Shown here: in pieces, positions 44,780-57,509 of the stretch
Layout: the number at the start of each line of letters is the position of its first letter
How positions within the stretch are numbered: position 1 is the first letter of the stretch
NCBI RefSeq assembly: GCF_000221185.1
Contig: NC_015865.1
Location: 1,178,001 to 1,242,000, forward strand
Origin: Thermococcus sp. 4557
Lineage (GTDB): Archaea; Methanobacteriota_B; Thermococci; Thermococcales; Thermococcaceae
Direction of reading: 5' to 3'
DNA length: 64,000 bases
Notes under the pieces: generated by a model
Databases searched by the model: none
Told to the model about the DNA's origin: nothing
The model's input: only the letters and a program-made list of their open reading frames with translations
Position numbers and translations under genes: made by a program

Positions 44780-45787
44780 TCAGTACTTGCCGACGAGGTG
44801 GCACTCGGCGAAGTGGTTGTGCTCGTACTCGACGAGCTGCGGGTGCTTGGTGTCGCAGAGTCCCTTCTGGGCGTAGATGCACCTCGGGTGGAAGCGGCAC
44901 CCGGGCGGTATGTCAACGGCGTTGGGAACCTCACCCTTGATGGGCAGCTCCTTGATGACGTTCCTGCGCTCCGGTTTGGGCTCCGGAACGGCCGCGAGCA
45001 GTGCCCTGGTATACGGGTGGAGCGGGTTGTCGATGACCTTCTCGACCGGTCCCATCTCGACTATCCTGCCCAAGTACATGACCGCCATCCAGTCGGCGAA
45101 GTACCTGGCGGTGGACATGTCGTGGGTGATGTAGAGGTAGGTGACGCCCATCTTCTCCTTGAGCTCCTTCATCAGCTCGAGAACCTCTGCACGGATGGAC
45201 ACGTCAAGCATCGAGACCGGCTCGTCGGCGACGACGAAGGTCGGGTTGAGGATGAGGGCCCTAGCTATAGCCACACGCTGCCTCTGACCACCGGAGAGCA
45301 TGTGCGGGAACCTGCCGACGTAGTCCTCCGGCGGGGTTATCTTGACCATCTCGAGGGCCTTGTAGATGAGCTCCTCACGCTCGGCCTTGGTTTCACCGAT
45401 GCCGTGTATGAGCAGCGGCTCCTCGAGGATGTCGAATATCCTGAAGCGCGGGTTCATCGAACTGAACGGGTCCTGGAATATCATCTGCACGTGCCTGCGG
45501 TAGTTGAGCACATCCTCCCTTGTCTTGATGTGGGTGACGTCGTTGCCCTCGAGGTATATCCTTCCATCCGTCGGCTCGAGGAGCTTGACGATGAGCTTTC
45601 CGGTGGTCGATTTACCACAGCCGCTCTCACCAACCAGGGCGAAGACCTGCTGCTTGTATATCTCGAAGCTTATGCCGTCAACGGCGTGAACCTTCTTCTG
45701 CGGGGCACCCTTGATGGTGTCCACGAAGCCTCTCTTGATGGGGAAGTACTTCTTGAGGTTTTCAACTTTAAGTACCGGCTCGGCCAT
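44780..45787 (-). CDS. Peptide ABC transporter ATPase (OppF/DppF type)
   Basis: 335 residues. Walker A GESGCGKST, signature MLSGGQRQR, Walker B VVADEP, and the C-terminal oligopeptide/dipeptide cysteine motif GCRFHPRCIYAQKGLC, which in relatives binds an iron-sulfur cluster. KYFPIKRGF is a typical OppF opening. Last gene of the four-gene ABC operon, ten bases after its OppD-type partner; GAGGTGTGAGAA precedes the ATG. Confidence 0.92.
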   Translation of the reverse strand: MAEPVLKVENLKKYFPIKRGFVDTIKGAPQKKVHAVDGISFEIYKQQVFALVGESGCGKSTTGKLIVKLLEPTDGRIYLEGNDVTHIKTREDVLNYRRHVQMIFQDPFSSMNPRFRIFDILEEPLLIHGIGETKAEREELIYKALEMVKITPPEDYVGRFPHMLSGGQRQRVAIARALILNPTFVVADEPVSMLDVSIRAEVLELMKELKEKMGVTYLYITHDMSTARYFADWMAVMYLGRIVEMGPVEKVIDNPLHPYTRALLAAVPEPKPERRNVIKELPIKGEVPNAVDIPPGCRFHPRCIYAQKGLCDTKHPQLVEYEHNHFAECHLVGKY

Positions 45788-45797
45788 TTCTCACACC

Positions 45798-46757
45798 TCA
45801 CAGCAGCCAGCATGCGGCGTAGTGGTCCTTATCAACTTCCTTCAGCTCGGGCTCCTGCTCCTTGCAGACCTGCATAACGTAGGGGCACCTCGGGTTGAAG
45901 CGGCATCCCTTCGGCGGGTTGATGAGGTTGGGCGGCTGTCCCGGGATGAACTCAAGCCTCTCAATGTCCTCGTGGAGCCTCGGTATGGCCGAGAGAAGCT
46001 TCTGGGTGTACGGGTGGGCCGGCTCGTAGTAGATCTTCTCGCTGTCTCCGATCTCGACGATCTTGCCCGCGTACATGATGGCAACGCGGTCGCTGATCTC
46101 GGCGAGGATGCTGAGGTCGTGGGTGATGAATATCATGGAGAGACCGAGCTCCTTCTTGAGCTTCTTCAGGAGGTTGATGATCTGGGCCTGGACAACGACA
46201 TCGAGGGCCGTCGTCGGCTCATCGGCTATGACCACCTCGGGCTCAAGCAGGAGGGCCGAGGCTATGATGACACGCTGCTTCATACCTCCCGAGAGTTCGT
46301 GGGGATAGCGGTAGACGATCTCGGGGTCGAGACCCACGAGCTCGAGATACTTCTGAGCCCTGTCAATGGCATCGTCCTTGCTCATGCCCTTGTGAAGGAG
46401 GAGCGGCTCGATCATCTGGTGACCGACGGTGTAAACCGGGTTGAGGGCGTTCATGGCACCCTGGAATATCATTGCTATCTTCTGCCAGCGAACCTCTTTC
46501 CTGAGGACGTCCTCGGGGAGACCGACTATCTCCCTGCCATCGATCTTGATGCTGCCTCCAACTATCTTACCCGGTGCGGTGGGCATTCCCATAAGGGTAA
46601 AACCGAGGGAGGACTTGCCGCATCCGCTCTCACCGGCAAGTCCCAGCACCTCGCCCTTCTTGAGGTTAAAGGTGAGGTCATCGACGGCCTTGACGACGCC
46701 CTTGTTGGTGAAGTAATACATCTTGAGGTTCTTAACTTCGAGTACGTTCTTGGTCAT
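45798..46757 (-). CDS. Peptide ABC transporter ATPase (OppD/DppD type)
   Basis: 319 residues. Walker A GESGCGKSS, signature ELSGGMKQR, Walker B VIADEPTTALDV, H-loop THDLS, and a C-terminal cysteine motif GCRFNPRCPYVMQVC. Works as heterodimer with the OppF-type ATPase downstream. GAGGTGGTATAA precedes the ATG; ten bases after the permease gene. Confidence 0.93.
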   Translation of the reverse strand: MTKNVLEVKNLKMYYFTNKGVVKAVDDLTFNLKKGEVLGLAGESGCGKSSLGFTLMGMPTAPGKIVGGSIKIDGREIVGLPEDVLRKEVRWQKIAMIFQGAMNALNPVYTVGHQMIEPLLLHKGMSKDDAIDRAQKYLELVGLDPEIVYRYPHELSGGMKQRVIIASALLLEPEVVIADEPTTALDVVVQAQIINLLKKLKKELGLSMIFITHDLSILAEISDRVAIMYAGKIVEIGDSEKIYYEPAHPYTQKLLSAIPRLHEDIERLEFIPGQPPNLINPPKGCRFNPRCPYVMQVCKEQEPELKEVDKDHYAACWLL

Positions 46758-46767
46758 TTATACCACC

Positions 46768-48237
46768 TCACAGCCTCCTGAGCTTCGGGTTGAGTATCTT
46801 ATCGAGGGCCGTACCTATGAGGACGAAGGTCAGGCCGACGACAGCTATGCCGAGCCCGGGCGGGAGAACCCACCACCAGTAGCCCTTGGTCGTCGCCGCC
46901 TGCGCCTGAGCCGCGTTGAGTATCTGTCCCCACGTAACGGCGGTCGGGTCTCCGATACCAAGGAAGCTCAGGGAAGCCTCGGCGATAACCGCACCCGGAA
47001 CGCTGAGGGCTATGACGGCAAAGGCGTAGGGCAGGAGCTGTGGCAGTATATGCTTGAGGATTATCCTTCCGTTGCCGGCACCAAGGGCCTTGGCGGCCTC
47101 GATGTATGTCTGCTCCTTGATCTGGAGGGCCATACTTCTCGCAATCCTCGCTATTCCCATCCATCCGAAGATGACCAACAGCAGGACTATGAACATTAGG
47201 GTCACGTGTCCCACCGTGGCACCGATGAGGATGAGTATCGGCAGGCTCGGTATTGAGGCGAATATCTCGTTGATACGCATCATGAACTCGTCGGCGTTTC
47301 CACCGAGGTACGCGCTGGTGACTCCGTAGACGAGACCTATGAGGGTGCTGAGGACGGAGACGAGGATACCGATGACGAGGGAGACCCTGCTACCCCAGAT
47401 GATGCCTGCCCAGAGGTCCCTTCCGAGGTAGTCGGTACCCATGGTTCCGTAGCTCCTTCCGAGGAAGGTGATCTTTATGTCGTCGAGGATGACCTTGTTA
47501 TAGCCGGGGGCAGGGTTGTCGATCTTGAGGACGAGCCTGTAGTCACCCCAGAGCGGCTCGGGGTTGTTTATAACATCCTCAGCCTTCATCCCGGGCTCGA
47601 CCTTGGCGAAGGCGGTGGACACGAGGGTGTTGATGTTCATGATGACTATCGGGTCCATCTGCGCCTGGAGCGGGTCGAGTTCCTCACCCTCGGTAACGTT
47701 GACGAGCCACACGTAGATGTTGGCCGAAATCGCCGCATCCCTACCGACGGATATGGTGGTGGAACTGGTGAGCGGCTTGCTGTCTACGAGGGGAACGGTC
47801 TTTCCATCGGGCCTCTCAAGGTAAAGGCTGTACGTCGGGGCCTTGGACGGCAGGGCCAGGGTCACGTTTATGTTCCTTATGATGATTCCCTGCGGACCCA
47901 GGTAGTAGCCCTCGGGGAAGTTGTAATCCGCCTCAATTATCGTCTCGGTGTCGCTCGGGTGGGTTATGGAGAGCTCATCGCTGTAGTAGGCCACCTGGGG
48001 AACGAGCTTCTGGGAGGTGAACATGTTGTACCAGGTCGGCGGAACGTTCTTGGGGTTGTCCTCCCAGTAGGCGGAGCTCCTCCACTTATCGGGGAGGTCC
48101 GGTATTGTTGTGTACGGGGCTGTAAGCGCGACGAGGACGAGGAGGATGAGGAGAAGGACGCCGGCTATACCGGTCTTCTCCCTCTTAAACTCTTCAAGGA
48201 ATTCCTTAAATCCTTCTTTGACGTCGACCCATCTCAT
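46768..48237 (-). CDS. Peptide ABC permease (OppC type) with large external domain
   Basis: 489 residues, well above the ~300 of bacterial OppC. After the first helix (IAGVLLLILLVLVALTA) comes an external segment of about 215 residues, then YGTMGTDYLGRDLWAGIIWG and five membrane helices with the EAA loop YIEAAKALGAGNGRIILKH. Enlarged OppC proteins of this kind occur in other Thermococcales. GAGGTGATTCACG precedes the ATG, 11 bases after the OppB-type gene. Confidence 0.91.
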   Translation of the reverse strand: MRWVDVKEGFKEFLEEFKREKTGIAGVLLLILLVLVALTAPYTTIPDLPDKWRSSAYWEDNPKNVPPTWYNMFTSQKLVPQVAYYSDELSITHPSDTETIIEADYNFPEGYYLGPQGIIIRNINVTLALPSKAPTYSLYLERPDGKTVPLVDSKPLTSSTTISVGRDAAISANIYVWLVNVTEGEELDPLQAQMDPIVIMNINTLVSTAFAKVEPGMKAEDVINNPEPLWGDYRLVLKIDNPAPGYNKVILDDIKITFLGRSYGTMGTDYLGRDLWAGIIWGSRVSLVIGILVSVLSTLIGLVYGVTSAYLGGNADEFMMRINEIFASIPSLPILILIGATVGHVTLMFIVLLLVIFGWMGIARIARSMALQIKEQTYIEAAKALGAGNGRIILKHILPQLLPYAFAVIALSVPGAVIAEASLSFLGIGDPTAVTWGQILNAAQAQAATTKGYWWWVLPPGLGIAVVGLTFVLIGTALDKILNPKLRRL

Positions 48238-48248
48238 CGTGAATCACC

Positions 48249-49304
48249 TCACATATTGGCGGAAGCACCGACCTTGACACGCGGGTCGAGGAATCCATAG
48301 ACCATGTCCGCGAGGACAACTCCCGCAAGGTAGAGCACCGTGAAGAAGTACGTCAGTCCTATGAGGAGGTTGGTCTCGTTCTGCTGGAGGGCGACCCAGT
48401 AGAGCCTTCCCATTCCCGGGTAGTTGAAGACGAGCTCACTGATGATGGCACCACCGAGAGATCCGAGGAGGGAGAAGATGATCATGGTGACTATCGGCGG
48501 CGCGGCGGCGCGGAGGGCGTGACCGTAGATGATCTTGTGCTCGGGGACACCCTTGGCCCTGGCCGCCATGATGAAGTCCTCCTGGAGGGTGCCTATCATG
48601 ATGTTCCTGGTCGTCCATGCCCAGCCACCGAAGGCGACGAAGACGTAGGTGAAGACCGGAAGGGCGAGCTTGTAGATAACGTCCTTAACGTGCTCCCAGC
48701 CGGTGAGCTGCGGGTCAAACATCGAGCTGAGCGGGAACCAGCCGAGCTTGAAGGCGAAGATCAGGAGGAACATCATTCCGGTCCACCACATCGGCAGACT
48801 GTAGGTGAGCAGCGCGAAGATAGACAGACCCCTGTCGAAGACGCTGCCAGCGTGCCTGGCGGCCCTGACTCCAAGGAAGATACCCAGGATGATGACTATT
48901 ATCGTCGCTGTCGTGAAGAGCAAGACGCTCCTCGGAACGGCAACCTTGATGATGTCCGAGACGTTGTTGGTTCCGAAGATGGGCGTGGTGGTGGTTCCAA
49001 AGTCGAGTTTCAGGGTGCGTACGGCCTTGTTGTAAACCTTCTGCCAGTACGGAAGGTCGAGTTCGTACTTCTCCCTGAGGAACTGCTCGTGCTCGGCCTT
49101 CGCCTTCTCGTAGGCGTCCTGGCCCTGTGTCCTCAGGATATTCTGCCCCGTGGTCCTATCCCATTGCATCATCTCATCGTTCATCTTTGCCAGGTTGCTC
49201 TGTTCCGCAACCTTAACAAAGAGTGCCGAGATAATAAAGGTCACAATCAGTAGAACGAGGATAGCGTTCAGAATTCTAAACACAAGGTACTTTAGATACC
49301 CCAT
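48249..49304 (-). CDS. Peptide ABC permease (OppB type)
   Basis: 351 residues, six membrane segments, with the OppB opening YLVFRILNAILVLLIV and the EAA loop DFIMAARAKGVPEHKIIYGHALR. An external segment of about 80 residues follows the first helix. First gene of the ABC operon; GGGGGTGAAAAA precedes the ATG and a separate TATA box lies upstream, so this operon can be expressed apart from the binding protein. Confidence 0.91.
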   Translation of the reverse strand: MGYLKYLVFRILNAILVLLIVTFIISALFVKVAEQSNLAKMNDEMMQWDRTTGQNILRTQGQDAYEKAKAEHEQFLREKYELDLPYWQKVYNKAVRTLKLDFGTTTTPIFGTNNVSDIIKVAVPRSVLLFTTATIIVIILGIFLGVRAARHAGSVFDRGLSIFALLTYSLPMWWTGMMFLLIFAFKLGWFPLSSMFDPQLTGWEHVKDVIYKLALPVFTYVFVAFGGWAWTTRNIMIGTLQEDFIMAARAKGVPEHKIIYGHALRAAAPPIVTMIIFSLLGSLGGAIISELVFNYPGMGRLYWVALQQNETNLLIGLTYFFTVLYLAGVVLADMVYGFLDPRVKVGASANM

Positions 49305-49484: not shown

Positions 49485-51858
49485 TCACTTCTTCTTGGTG
49501 AAGTACCAGGCGGCCGCGGCGATGATGATTATCACCAGGCCGACGACGACGTAGGTGGTCGTGTTGCTACCTCCGCTCGGGGTCTCAGTGGTGGTAGCCG
49601 GAGCGGTGGTGGTCTCGCCTGGAGTGGTGGTAGTGGTGCTGGTTATCTCGTCCCAGGTGAGGCCTGAGATCTTCAGCATGACCTTGGCGAGGTCATCGAC
49701 GTGCTGCTTGGTGAGGAGGTCGAGCTGGAGGAGTCCCTCACCGCTGCTGCTGAAGGAGTACTTGCTGCTGGCGTCGTAGGCGTCACTGTTGGCGACGAGC
49801 TCACCCATGGCCCAGTACATCTCCCACGGCATGCTCGGGTAGAGGATGTAGTTGCCGGCGGTAACGTCGTCCGCGAACGGGTGGACGTAGTTGCCGTAGA
49901 CAACGTAGCCGTTGTCGGTGAACTGGAAGCCGAGGAAGGTCTGGTAGGTGGCGGCCGTGTCACTCAGGGCGCTGTCGTAGTACGGGTCGTCCGGGGTATC
50001 CTTGTAGGCCCAGGTGTAGTAGAAGGCGATGTAGTACTTGATGTCGTCAACGGTCATCCTCACGCCGTTCTGCCACTCACCCATGTCACAGGTGACGGTG
50101 ACCTTAGCCTTGGCGGTCTCGCCAGCGTGGGCCGCAATCCAGCCCTGGGTCTGGTTGTAGATGACCGCATCGTCCGGAACCTTGAACTCACCCCTCTCAA
50201 GGGTCCACTTGCACCTGTACGGGACGTAGATTCCAGAGCCTGGTGCTGTAAACGTCGGTGATACCTCCGACCGGGTTGATGGCGCTCATGAAGAGGGCAC
50301 CGGTCGAGGCGAACTGGGCAACCTTGAGGTGCTTGTCCGAGGTCTTGGCGCTCATGAGGCTCCACCTGCTGGCAATACCAACGCTCGGGTCGCTGATGAT
50401 GTCGGTAACCCGCTCCTTGTTAACCGGGTAGAACTCCCAGTTCTCAACGAGGAAAATCCTGACACTGTCCATGATACCGATTGTGATACCGATCTTCTGG
50501 AGGTCCCAGTACTGGTCGGCGTTGTTGAGGATGATGGTGATGTTGGTGGCCGGGTCAGTGTACTGGGTCATAAGCAGGAGGTAGCCGATCTCCTTGGTCG
50601 TCCAGTTGAGTATCGGGCCGAGGCTCTCCTCGCTGGTGTAGTACTTGGTGTCGAGCTTCTGGAGGCCAGCGGTAACGCTGCCGTCTCCAATGTACTTGAG
50701 GGCGTCCTCAACGGTGACGTCCGGCTGGTGCCTCGGGTCGTTGAAGTTCGGGTAGTAACCGAGCGGTGAGTACCAGTAGTAAATCTGCCAGTCGGGGTAC
50801 ATGCTTCCGAGACCACCGGCACCCCAACCGCCGGTGTAGAGGGTCCACTCGTAGGTGCTTATCGGCTTCCTGAAGACGATCTCGCTCGCCTTCTGCCTGT
50901 CGAGGAGCATCCTGTCAACCTTGAATCCGACCTTCTTCTCGAGGAGGTCAGAGATGTAAAGGCCTATGTCCTTCCTCTCGTCCTCGGTACGGATGACGAA
51001 CTTGACCTCAACCGGCTGGCCGTCGAAGTACCAGTAACCGTCATCCTTCTTCTCGAGGGTGTGGCCGGCGGCGGCGACCTGCTGGGCGGCCTCCTGCATG
51101 GCGTCGCTTATCATCTTGAGGGCGAGGTCCTCGTTGCCGTCGGCGGTGAGGTGGAGGGCGTCGTAGACCGGGCCGAAGTATTTGGCGGCCGGGTCGCTCG
51201 GGGTTATACCGCTGAGGGCGGCGGCACCGCTACCCTGGTAGATGTTCTGGATGATGTAGTTCCTGCTGATGAGCCAGTTCATGGCGAACCTAACTTCCCT
51301 GATGGCGAACGGGTTGAAGTAAACGTTGTCACCAACGGTGACGATCGGGAGGTCCTGGTCCGGGTCCTTGTACGGGTTGATGCTCAGCTCGACGGAGGAG
51401 CTGGCACTCTTCTTGAGGTCGAGGTTGGCGAGAACGTCGCTTCCGAGACCCTGGTACTTGTTGGCGCCGAAGGCGAAGAGACCGAGGTCGAACTCACCTT
51501 TAGCGACCTGGAGGATTATGGTCTCCTCGTTCTGGACGCCCTGGTACTCGATAACATCGGCGTAACCTTCCTTCGGGAGCTTGGGGTCATCGTTGAAAAC
51601 AGTCCTCTGACCGTTAAACTTCTCAAGCTTGAGGTAGAGGTTCTCGGGTGAGTACAGTGAGATGATGTACGGACCGTTGCTGATCACGAAGTGGCCGTAC
51701 TTGAGGTACCACTGGAGGTCGGCCTTGAACCTGTCCTTTGCATCCTGGCTGTCCAGCGGTATGTCCTTCGGCGTGTAGTCCGCCGCGCTAACCGGGTGGA
51801 TGGCAAACAAACTAAACAACATCAAACCCATAATAAACAATCCCAAAGCCTTCTTCAT
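49485..51858 (-). pseudogene. Peptide-binding protein OppA/DppA, frameshifted
   Basis: Extracellular solute-binding protein of family 5 for the adjacent ABC importer. Residues 1-25 are a Sec signal (ending HPVSAAD). The first frame runs to a TGA at 50197-50199 (553 residues); the remaining 230 or so residues continue in the next frame, from about IYVPYRCKWTLERGEF through GQWIAFYYTW-like segments to a Thr-rich stalk, one membrane helix and KKK. Deleting one base around 50225-50245 restores a single 790-residue protein. Both parts look conserved and free of other damage, so a sequencing error, a very recent mutation or recoding are all possible. RBS GGAGG. Confidence 0.85.
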
Positions 51859-55078: not shown

Positions 55079-55192
55079 CCCCCGGCACCATTTTTCTACA
55101 CAACGGGGAACATTTCCCCATCTTAATCTCTGACTCTGTTACGATGGAAATCTTTTTAAGTGGGAGGCGTACATTACCACGGTGCTCCAGGA

Positions 55193-56239
55193 ATGGGATT
55201 CATTGGTAAAGTCCTGGAGAACGTAACACTGCTCATAATTGTTCTCATCATCACGGGCGTTCTAATAGCCCAGGCCGAGCACAAGATACACTCGATCGAG
55301 ATGAACAATCTCGGAATTCCAGCGGATGGTGGGAGGGGGATAAGGGAGAGCCTGGAAAAAACCTACAGGTACGTCAATTTCTCCCTCGCCCTGTTCAGCA
55401 GGAAGAACGGAAGCGTCGTCGTGGTAAGATACGGAAACATGACGACCGAAATATACCACCCCTCTCCCCGCGAGATTTTTGAAAAGGCCTTTCGGACGAC
55501 ACCGGAGAGGGCAATACTGACGACTTTCACGGTTCTCCTGCTGACGATGGCGCTGGTGTTCCTGCTGGGCCTCTACTGGGGGCTGAAGGCCGGCTATCGG
55601 GGAGGCTGGTGGGACAGGGTTCTCTCCGCCCTGGCACCGATATTCTCCGCCATTCCTGGCTGGTTCTGGGCGATATTCCTGCTGTGGATGCTCTGGTGGC
55701 GGCTGGACCTTTCCACGATAGATTACATGGGCTACATCGCCCACGCCAAGGCCACGGGGGAGATAAGCGTTTTAACCTACCTGAACGCCCTCCTCCTTCC
55801 CGTCCTCACCCTGACCTTCGCCAACGTCGTCATCTACGCCTTCAACGTGAGAACCCTTGTGAAGAAGGAAACTCATGAGGAGCACTTCTTCGCCGACGTG
55901 CTCAAGGGCCTTCCCGACAGGCGGATAATGAAAAAGCTCCTCAGAACGGTTCTCCCCTCGTTCCTGACCTTCACGAGCTACAACTTCCTCGGCCTGCTGA
56001 TAAACGCGATGGCCGTTGAAAAGCTCTTCAACGTGAACGGGATTGGCTACGTCTTCGCCCACTCCGCGGGAAAGGACTACTACGTATCGCCCGGCGGTGA
56101 GATAACGCAGACGTTCGCCTTCAACGGCGGGCACATCTTCTTCGTCGCCCTCGTCATGGTCCTGCTCTACTTCATCAACTCGACGGTCATGGAGGCGCTG
56201 TACCTGAAGCTCGACCCCAGGGTGAGGCGGAATGTTTGA
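55193..56239 (+). CDS. Orphan dipeptide/oligopeptide-type ABC permease (OppB-like)
   Basis: 349 residues with about six membrane segments and a dipeptide-permease C-terminus (NVNGIGYVFAHS, YFINSTVMEALYLKLDPRV). The first helix is followed by an external segment of about 80 residues. The usual EAA loop is poorly conserved (FADVLKGLPDRRIMKKLLRT). RBS GGTG-type, TATA box CTTTTTAAG at 55151-55159. Only a second permease follows; no ATPase or binding-protein gene adjoins. Confidence 0.8.
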   Translation: MGFIGKVLENVTLLIIVLIITGVLIAQAEHKIHSIEMNNLGIPADGGRGIRESLEKTYRYVNFSLALFSRKNGSVVVVRYGNMTTEIYHPSPREIFEKAFRTTPERAILTTFTVLLLTMALVFLLGLYWGLKAGYRGGWWDRVLSALAPIFSAIPGWFWAIFLLWMLWWRLDLSTIDYMGYIAHAKATGEISVLTYLNALLLPVLTLTFANVVIYAFNVRTLVKKETHEEHFFADVLKGLPDRRIMKKLLRTVLPSFLTFTSYNFLGLLINAMAVEKLFNVNGIGYVFAHSAGKDYYVSPGGEITQTFAFNGGHIFFVALVMVLLYFINSTVMEALYLKLDPRVRRNV

Positions 56240-57509
56240 GAGAAACCTCTCAACCCGGGCGGCGGTGGCGATAATTCTATCGTTCATCCTAGTCTCCATC
56301 ATCGGTCCCCACACCCTGAACCACGAGGACGTTGAGAACTGGGACAATCTAAGCTACTGGCGTCTTAACCCGCAGGGGGTTCCGCCGGAATGGTACGGCG
56401 AGCTGGTGGGGCTTCCAAAGACGGAGTGGCTCCAGGGGGAGCGTCAGGCGGGGGCGTTCGTCTTCACCTACGACTTCCACTACTCGTCCTCACCCTCGGA
56501 TATCATCTTCATTCCAAACTCGACGGGAGTGATGAGGATAAAGATCATCGGGCCGGACGGGCGGGAATACATCCTCTGGGACGGCTACGTTTTCGGCGAG
56601 ATACACTTCTCCAAGAACCCCAGCGTGTTCGTCAGGATAGCGGGGGAGAAGTGCAACGTGACTCCAGACGGCGGGAACCTGCTGTTCCATGATGCCTTCA
56701 ACGTGATATTCTCGAAGCCCACCGAGGACTGCCTGGACCATCCGGAATTCCTGAAGGGGGAGTACAAAATAGTGGTCGAGGGCGCGGAGAAGGAGCCGAG
56801 GATAAGGGTGCTTGGAAAGAGCTACGGCCTCCTGGGAACCGACACCGTTGGGAGGGACGTCTGGACCGGCTTCATCTGGGGAATGAGGGAAACCATAGTC
56901 ATAGCCATCCTCGGCTCCCTCGCAACGGTTGGCCTGGCCCTGGTTCTGGGAACTCTGAGCGTCCTCTCGAGCTGGGTGGGCAAGATAGCGGATTTCGTAT
57001 CGCGGCTCGTGACGGTAACCCCGGTTCTTCCTGTGGCCGTGTCCGCGGTGGTTCTCGTGGCGGCGATAGACGAGAACTACGTCATCAAGGCCAGTCCACT
57101 CGCGATAGCCCTCATCGTGGGAATCCTGATGATGGGGAACGTCTCCCGAAACGTCCGCTCGATGGTGGAGGAGGAGCTGAGAAAGGAGTACGTCGAATCC
57201 GCCAGGGCGCTCGGCGGGAGTTCCCTCTGGATTCTCAGGAAGCACGTCTCAAAGGTTCTGGTGCCCTACACCGTCTATCAGTTCGCCCTCGCCGTCCCCG
57301 GAACGATAGCGTTCATAACCCTCCTGGGCTTCTTCAACATCGTGCCGGGCTTCAACTGGGGAACCATAATGAGCCAGACCATAAGGGAGGGGGCAACCTA
57401 CAGGCTGGCATGGTGGCAGGTGGTTCCGGTCGGGGTTTCAATAGGCCTTCTGGCGCTCTCCTTCGTGTCTCTGAGCAGGAGGATAGAGGAGGAGTTCCTG
57501 AAGCGCTGA
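56232..57509 (+). CDS. Orphan peptide-type ABC permease (OppC-like)
   Basis: 425 residues; first helix, an external domain of about 150 residues, then LLGTDTVGRDVWTGFIWG and five helices with the EAA loop YVESARALGGSSLWILRKH. Same build as the OppC-type protein at 46768-48237 but clearly divergent. GGGTGAGGCGGA precedes the ATG, and it overlaps the previous gene by eight bases. The pair must borrow ATPases from elsewhere, or act with another partner. Confidence 0.82.
   Translation: MFERNLSTRAAVAIILSFILVSIIGPHTLNHEDVENWDNLSYWRLNPQGVPPEWYGELVGLPKTEWLQGERQAGAFVFTYDFHYSSSPSDIIFIPNSTGVMRIKIIGPDGREYILWDGYVFGEIHFSKNPSVFVRIAGEKCNVTPDGGNLLFHDAFNVIFSKPTEDCLDHPEFLKGEYKIVVEGAEKEPRIRVLGKSYGLLGTDTVGRDVWTGFIWGMRETIVIAILGSLATVGLALVLGTLSVLSSWVGKIADFVSRLVTVTPVLPVAVSAVVLVAAIDENYVIKASPLAIALIVGILMMGNVSRNVRSMVEEELRKEYVESARALGGSSLWILRKHVSKVLVPYTVYQFALAVPGTIAFITLLGFFNIVPGFNWGTIMSQTIREGATYRLAWWQVVPVGVSIGLLALSFVSLSRRIEEEFLKR

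Follow-up and report, generated by a model that had tools for sequence, protein, structure and literature searches.

A 41-bp deletion in the gene of a predicted circularly permuted binding protein beside an intact oppBCDF operon in Thermococcus sp. 4557

We analysed a 64,000-bp stretch (the window) of the Thermococcus sp. 4557 genome, a single contig of 2,011,320 bases, and found on its minus strand the complete gene set of an Opp-type importer, consisting of a binding protein (SBP), two permeases and two ATPases with oligo_HPY domains, the same set being present in relatives (Table 1). The four transporter genes downstream of the SBP gene had been described as intact in the original prediction, and they are indeed open from 49304 to 44780, with OppB/C permease and OppD/F ATPase domains. 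The SBP gene itself is divided between two reading frames. Its first fragment comprises a signal peptide, the segments P, Q and R and the start of segment S, followed by 10-11 out-of-frame residues and a TGA at 50199-50197, reading from the start at 51858, and up to residue 544 it is 96% identical to the intact orthologue in the closest species (G044). The remainder of segment S, a Thr-rich stalk and a membrane anchor are encoded by the second fragment, which is open in another frame from 50285 to the stop at 49485; both the stop at 50197 and the out-of-register homology down to the C-terminal anchor had been correctly called beforehand. The match to the SBP family 5 profile (PF00496) scores 59.6 bits against a cut-off of 32.4 and covers only profile positions 110-362. 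The transported ligand is presumably a peptide, as judged from the family, and sugar binding is known for some archaeal family 5 members.

Table 1. Coordinates in the window of the opp genes, the two SBP gene fragments, the SBP segments and the deletion site.
Feature	Position	Strand	Description
OppF-like ATPase	44780..45787	-	intact; ABC_tran + oligo_HPY; dN/dS 0.12 vs G044
OppD-like ATPase	45798..46757	-	intact; ABC_tran + oligo_HPY; dN/dS 0.03 vs G044
OppC-like permease	46768..48237	-	intact; BPD_transp_1; dN/dS 0.13 vs G044
OppB-like permease	48249..49304	-	intact; BPD_transp_1; dN/dS 0.05 vs G044
SBP gene, second fragment	49485..50285	-	open frame; 95% identical to G044
Segment S	49680..50337	-	C-terminal here; corresponds to the N-terminal part of canonical SBP5 (7FI3 ~4-241); interrupted by the deletion
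41-bp deletion site	50231..50232	-	~14 codons gone, net frame change; 1-nt uncertainty; from alignment to 25 relatives
SBP gene, first fragment	50197..51858	-	553 aa; from the ORF list; SBP_bac_5 match, residues 53-364 vs profile 110-362
Segments P-Q-R	50344..51753	-	N-terminal here; correspond to the middle and C-terminal parts of canonical SBP5 (7FI3 ~259-723)

Upon aligning the break with the relatives, we found that the lesion is not the single-base frameshift of the original prediction; instead 41 bp are absent between 50232 and 50231, where the window reads CTCTGGA directly followed by ATCTACG, and these 41 bp are present in all 25 relatives. The pairwise gap is exactly 41 against each of G044, G017, G014, G023, G016, G042 and G039, which rules out a single-base indel or a slippery site, and since 41 equals 3x13+2, the deletion mimics a one-base shift. 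In G044 the removed codons correspond to NLIHDTGGTINFDG. No second lesion was found when both halves of the SBP gene were compared with G044, and dN/dS against that species is 0.108 before the deletion and 0.120 after it (0.05-0.13 in the permeases); the rest of the SBP gene and oppBCDF appear from these values to be under purifying selection. The orthologues L029 (G039) and L032 (G037), both from draft assemblies, carry breaks elsewhere in the gene; in each case a single base seems to be missing from a short run of C, which may reflect errors or independent losses.

The lesion is a recent deletion, a culture-derived change or an assembly fault, and we favour the reading of the SBP gene as a recent null allele, with a private disabling lesion in a gene that is intact in relatives. 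By itself, the deletion is an ordinary recent loss. The product would end after 553 residues, so that neither the stalk nor the anchor would be made, nor most of segment S, and we infer that the cell has kept the translocator without its binding protein, as the original prediction had proposed; the frame-breaking deletion beside an open oppBCDF supports this.

We assign a small but appreciable probability to an assembly or sequencing artefact, in which case the organism possesses the 41 bp and an intact gene. Such an error would fit with the presence of the 41 bp in every relative, with the lack of decay in the rest of the SBP gene, and with the existence of a paralogue that is 84% identical at the DNA level in the gene half concerned and nearly identical around the deletion site, which could confuse assembly. 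Yet the paralogue contains the 41 bp, so a collapse of the two copies would not delete them, and a clean loss of 41 bp is not a homopolymer error. Furthermore, among 136 genes in the surrounding ~200 kb with counterparts in G044, the SBP gene carries the only convincing frame break, which also rules out generally poor sequence quality. A second flagged place, at genome position 1254298, lies in an ORF that is incompatible with another on the opposite strand and was judged to be a shadow ORF.

Recoding, which had been offered as the cell's possible solution, is unlikely because no start codon rescues the tail, none being found in its frame between 50285 and 50084 (which also rules out reinitiation there), and because 14 conserved residues would be absent anyway. 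Programmed or tolerated +1 frameshifting, for example near CCT TGA at 50202-50197, would yield a full-length protein and would be in keeping with the open and conserved tail; low-level recoding has also been proposed for the split chitinase gene of Pyrococcus furiosus (PMC3575233). The deletion is private to this genome, however, and therefore no frameshift site can have evolved for it; all 25 relatives are single-frame across the site, and in intact orthologues CCTTGAG is merely part of the conserved WTLERG codons, so that we give this explanation only a very slight chance. Least credible of all is a real two-part protein assembled from both fragments: although the SBP family tolerates several terminus positions, the tail lacks a signal peptide as well as any start before 50084 and would not be exported, and no homologue among the 25 relatives has the two-part structure that the original prediction had named as a sign of a genuine split.

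Returning to the recent null allele, short direct repeats of the TGGA type probably led to the loss of the 41 bp, through slippage or end-joining between them. The repeat at the break amounts to 1 nt on the assumption that the missing DNA was like the orthologues. On the assumption that it was like the paralogue (genome positions 1175516-1177693), which reads GATGGAATCTACG at the corresponding site, GATGGAATCTACG and CTCTGGAAC would form a TGGAA repeat with a spacing of 41 bp. At gene positions 1401-1500 and 1701-1800 the window gene and the paralogue are 99% identical, and because these patches lie near the deletion site, sequence exchange between the two genes is plausible and perhaps helped the deletion. 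That the deletion was copied from the paralogue is ruled out, since the paralogue itself carries the 41 bp.

Next, we investigated the order of the domains in the SBP, using the intact 822-aa orthologue L005, which is 68% identical to the window gene. Residues 37-517 of L005 align with residues 259-723 of the solved archaeal structure 7FI3 (E 1e-99), and residues 519-755 align with residues 4-241 (E 7.5e-37), so that both parts are homologous to 7FI3 in swapped order, whereas the canonical relative L052 aligns with 7FI3 in one block. The Pfam matches agree with the swapped order, as profile positions of PF00496 before 110 were not found upstream, where a collinear canonical protein would have them. 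Judged by these alignments, the window protein appears circularly permuted with respect to canonical family 5 SBPs, with the order P-Q-R-S instead of S-P-Q-R. The permuted fold is proposed from sequence comparison; a single-sequence structure prediction of L005 gave a low mean pLDDT of 33.8. The converse assignment, in which the window order is canonical and the paralogue permuted, was overturned by 7FI3 and Pfam; both are permuted, in different ways. The gene would thus encode a membrane-anchored, permuted family 5 (OppA/DppA-type) SBP feeding the adjacent OppBCDF importer, and we hold it to be highly probable that such a protein served this importer and has been lost through a recent 41-bp deletion in segment S.

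To find the rotations, we cut the protein into the segments P, Q, R and S and searched all fetched relatives. We observe four orders, represented by 8 distinct proteins for rotation A (SPQR), 24 for rotation B (PQRS, the window type), 9 for rotation C (RSPQ) and 20 for rotation D (QRSP). A long QRSP block is also present, by match pattern, in the other genera of Thermococcaceae, and the permuted order is older than the window's species. The rotations are seen as stop-to-stop frames free of internal stops in many species, which rules out assembly errors. The gene immediately downstream of A, B, C and some D genes encodes OppB, so that each rotation adjoins it in at least some genomes, and OppD and OppF are 80-99% identical to those of the window where the fetched stretch reaches them; near the remaining D genes and the C' genes, which are S-layer-like, no OppB was found within the fetched flanks, which are short for several of them.

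In almost every B, C and D protein, 2-3 residues separate R from S at the junction that joins the canonical C-terminus to the canonical N-terminus, with exceptions of 8-14 residues, and the junction sequence is similar across permutants, such as MTAETPDKHLKIAQF. Additionally, G031 encodes a fused double QRSP-QRSP protein of 2085 aa, G061 has a partial one, and the double order QRSPQRSP contains both PQRS and RSPQ. The mostly shared junction and the surviving fused double copy make it most likely that a canonical gene underwent head-to-tail duplication and fusion, followed by trimming of different ends; one tandem fusion of such a gene would create the R-S junction. In trees of the un-permuted segments A stands apart, D branches deep and is mixed, and neither B nor C forms a single clade in FastTree or IQ-TREE, so that monophyly was not recovered for every rotation; support is weak at several nodes. 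Overall, we judge it likely that the SBP of this Thermococcaceae importer occurs upstream of oppB in the four orders SPQR, PQRS, RSPQ and QRSP, that the three permuted orders come mainly from one tandem-duplication, end-to-start fusion trimmed differently, and that the gene was rotated repeatedly while the same translocator was served.

Upon examining the longer proteins, we observe that the 2085-aa protein of G031 (L053:3379-9636) combines its two tandem QRSP binding domains with Ig-like domains. L055 (G042) and L058 (G025) carry a serine/threonine protein kinase domain after the SBP domain (Pkinase E 2.3e-44 and 3.5e-46, respectively), and we read both as receptor-like kinases whose sensor binds solutes; ~1450-aa frames of similar appearance in G018, G062 and G067 are candidates for the same architecture.

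Elsewhere the genome encodes two intact orphan proteins related to this SBP, of 954 aa and 780 aa, with no opp genes found beside either, and two canonical family 5 SBPs, at 1857470 and 1750656. No other OppB in the genome is closely related to that of the operon, the remaining ones being 29-32% identical. The 954-aa and 780-aa relatives might cover the loss, with uptake continuing through them, which makes plausible the rescue by another binding protein raised in the original prediction. The 954-aa SBP lies just outside the window (genome positions 1174916-1177780, minus strand; L036:6916-9780), has the order RSPQ and lacks an anchor, and its C-terminal domain gives a weak S_layer_C match (E 0.0044); the RSPQ form with an S_layer_C-like domain is also found in G014, G036, G061 and G032. 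The upstream orphan of the original prediction is a pair of distant permease genes (BPD_transp_1) on the plus strand at 55160-57509 with no ATPase or SBP domain next to them; a gene without a Pfam match and a PP-loop gene come next.

If true, the permutation series would amount to a natural experiment on protein topology, as one SBP occurs with its ends at four different places, its translocator partner is conserved, and a fused double copy survives. It would make the course of circular permutation in nature testable. It also serves as a warning that profile-based annotation sees only part of permuted SBPs. Furthermore, a genome that keeps a conserved importer without its own SBP, together with permuted orphan relatives, would allow a direct test of translocator sharing.

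Among known systems, the window-type protein is homologous over both halves to 7FI3, a member of family 5 (PF00496, OppA/DppA), and like the canonical archaeal relative L052 it has an N-terminal signal sequence, a T-rich stalk and a hydrophobic C-terminus, and its gene lies beside oppBCDF; unlike 7FI3 and family 5 in general, its halves are swapped, and the window copy is broken. The closest precedent for the permutation is TpMglB-2 (Tp0684) of Treponema pallidum, a circularly permuted glucose-binding protein proposed as 'Cluster Bc' (PMC4990184), which is likewise a naturally permuted, tethered binding protein of an ABC importer, but is a cluster B sugar binder with one rotation described, whereas here the protein belongs to family 5 and three rotations exist besides the canonical one. 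The deletion recalls the split chitinase gene PF1233/PF1234 of Pyrococcus furiosus (PMC3575233), also a recent private frame break in an otherwise conserved Thermococcales gene, although that lesion is a one-nucleotide insertion in the gene of an enzyme and ours a 41-bp deletion in that of a binding protein. As a model for orphan binding proteins serving one translocator, Borrelia burgdorferi Opp has five OppA proteins for one OppBC permease (PMC12830385); no permutation is noted there, in contrast to the present family, in which cross-feeding is conjectural. In the literature searched, whose coverage left out most subscription journals, we found no description of circular permutation in family 5. 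Permutation of a tethered binding protein is already known from TpMglB-2, of a different class, and the family 5 rotation series would extend it to another class.
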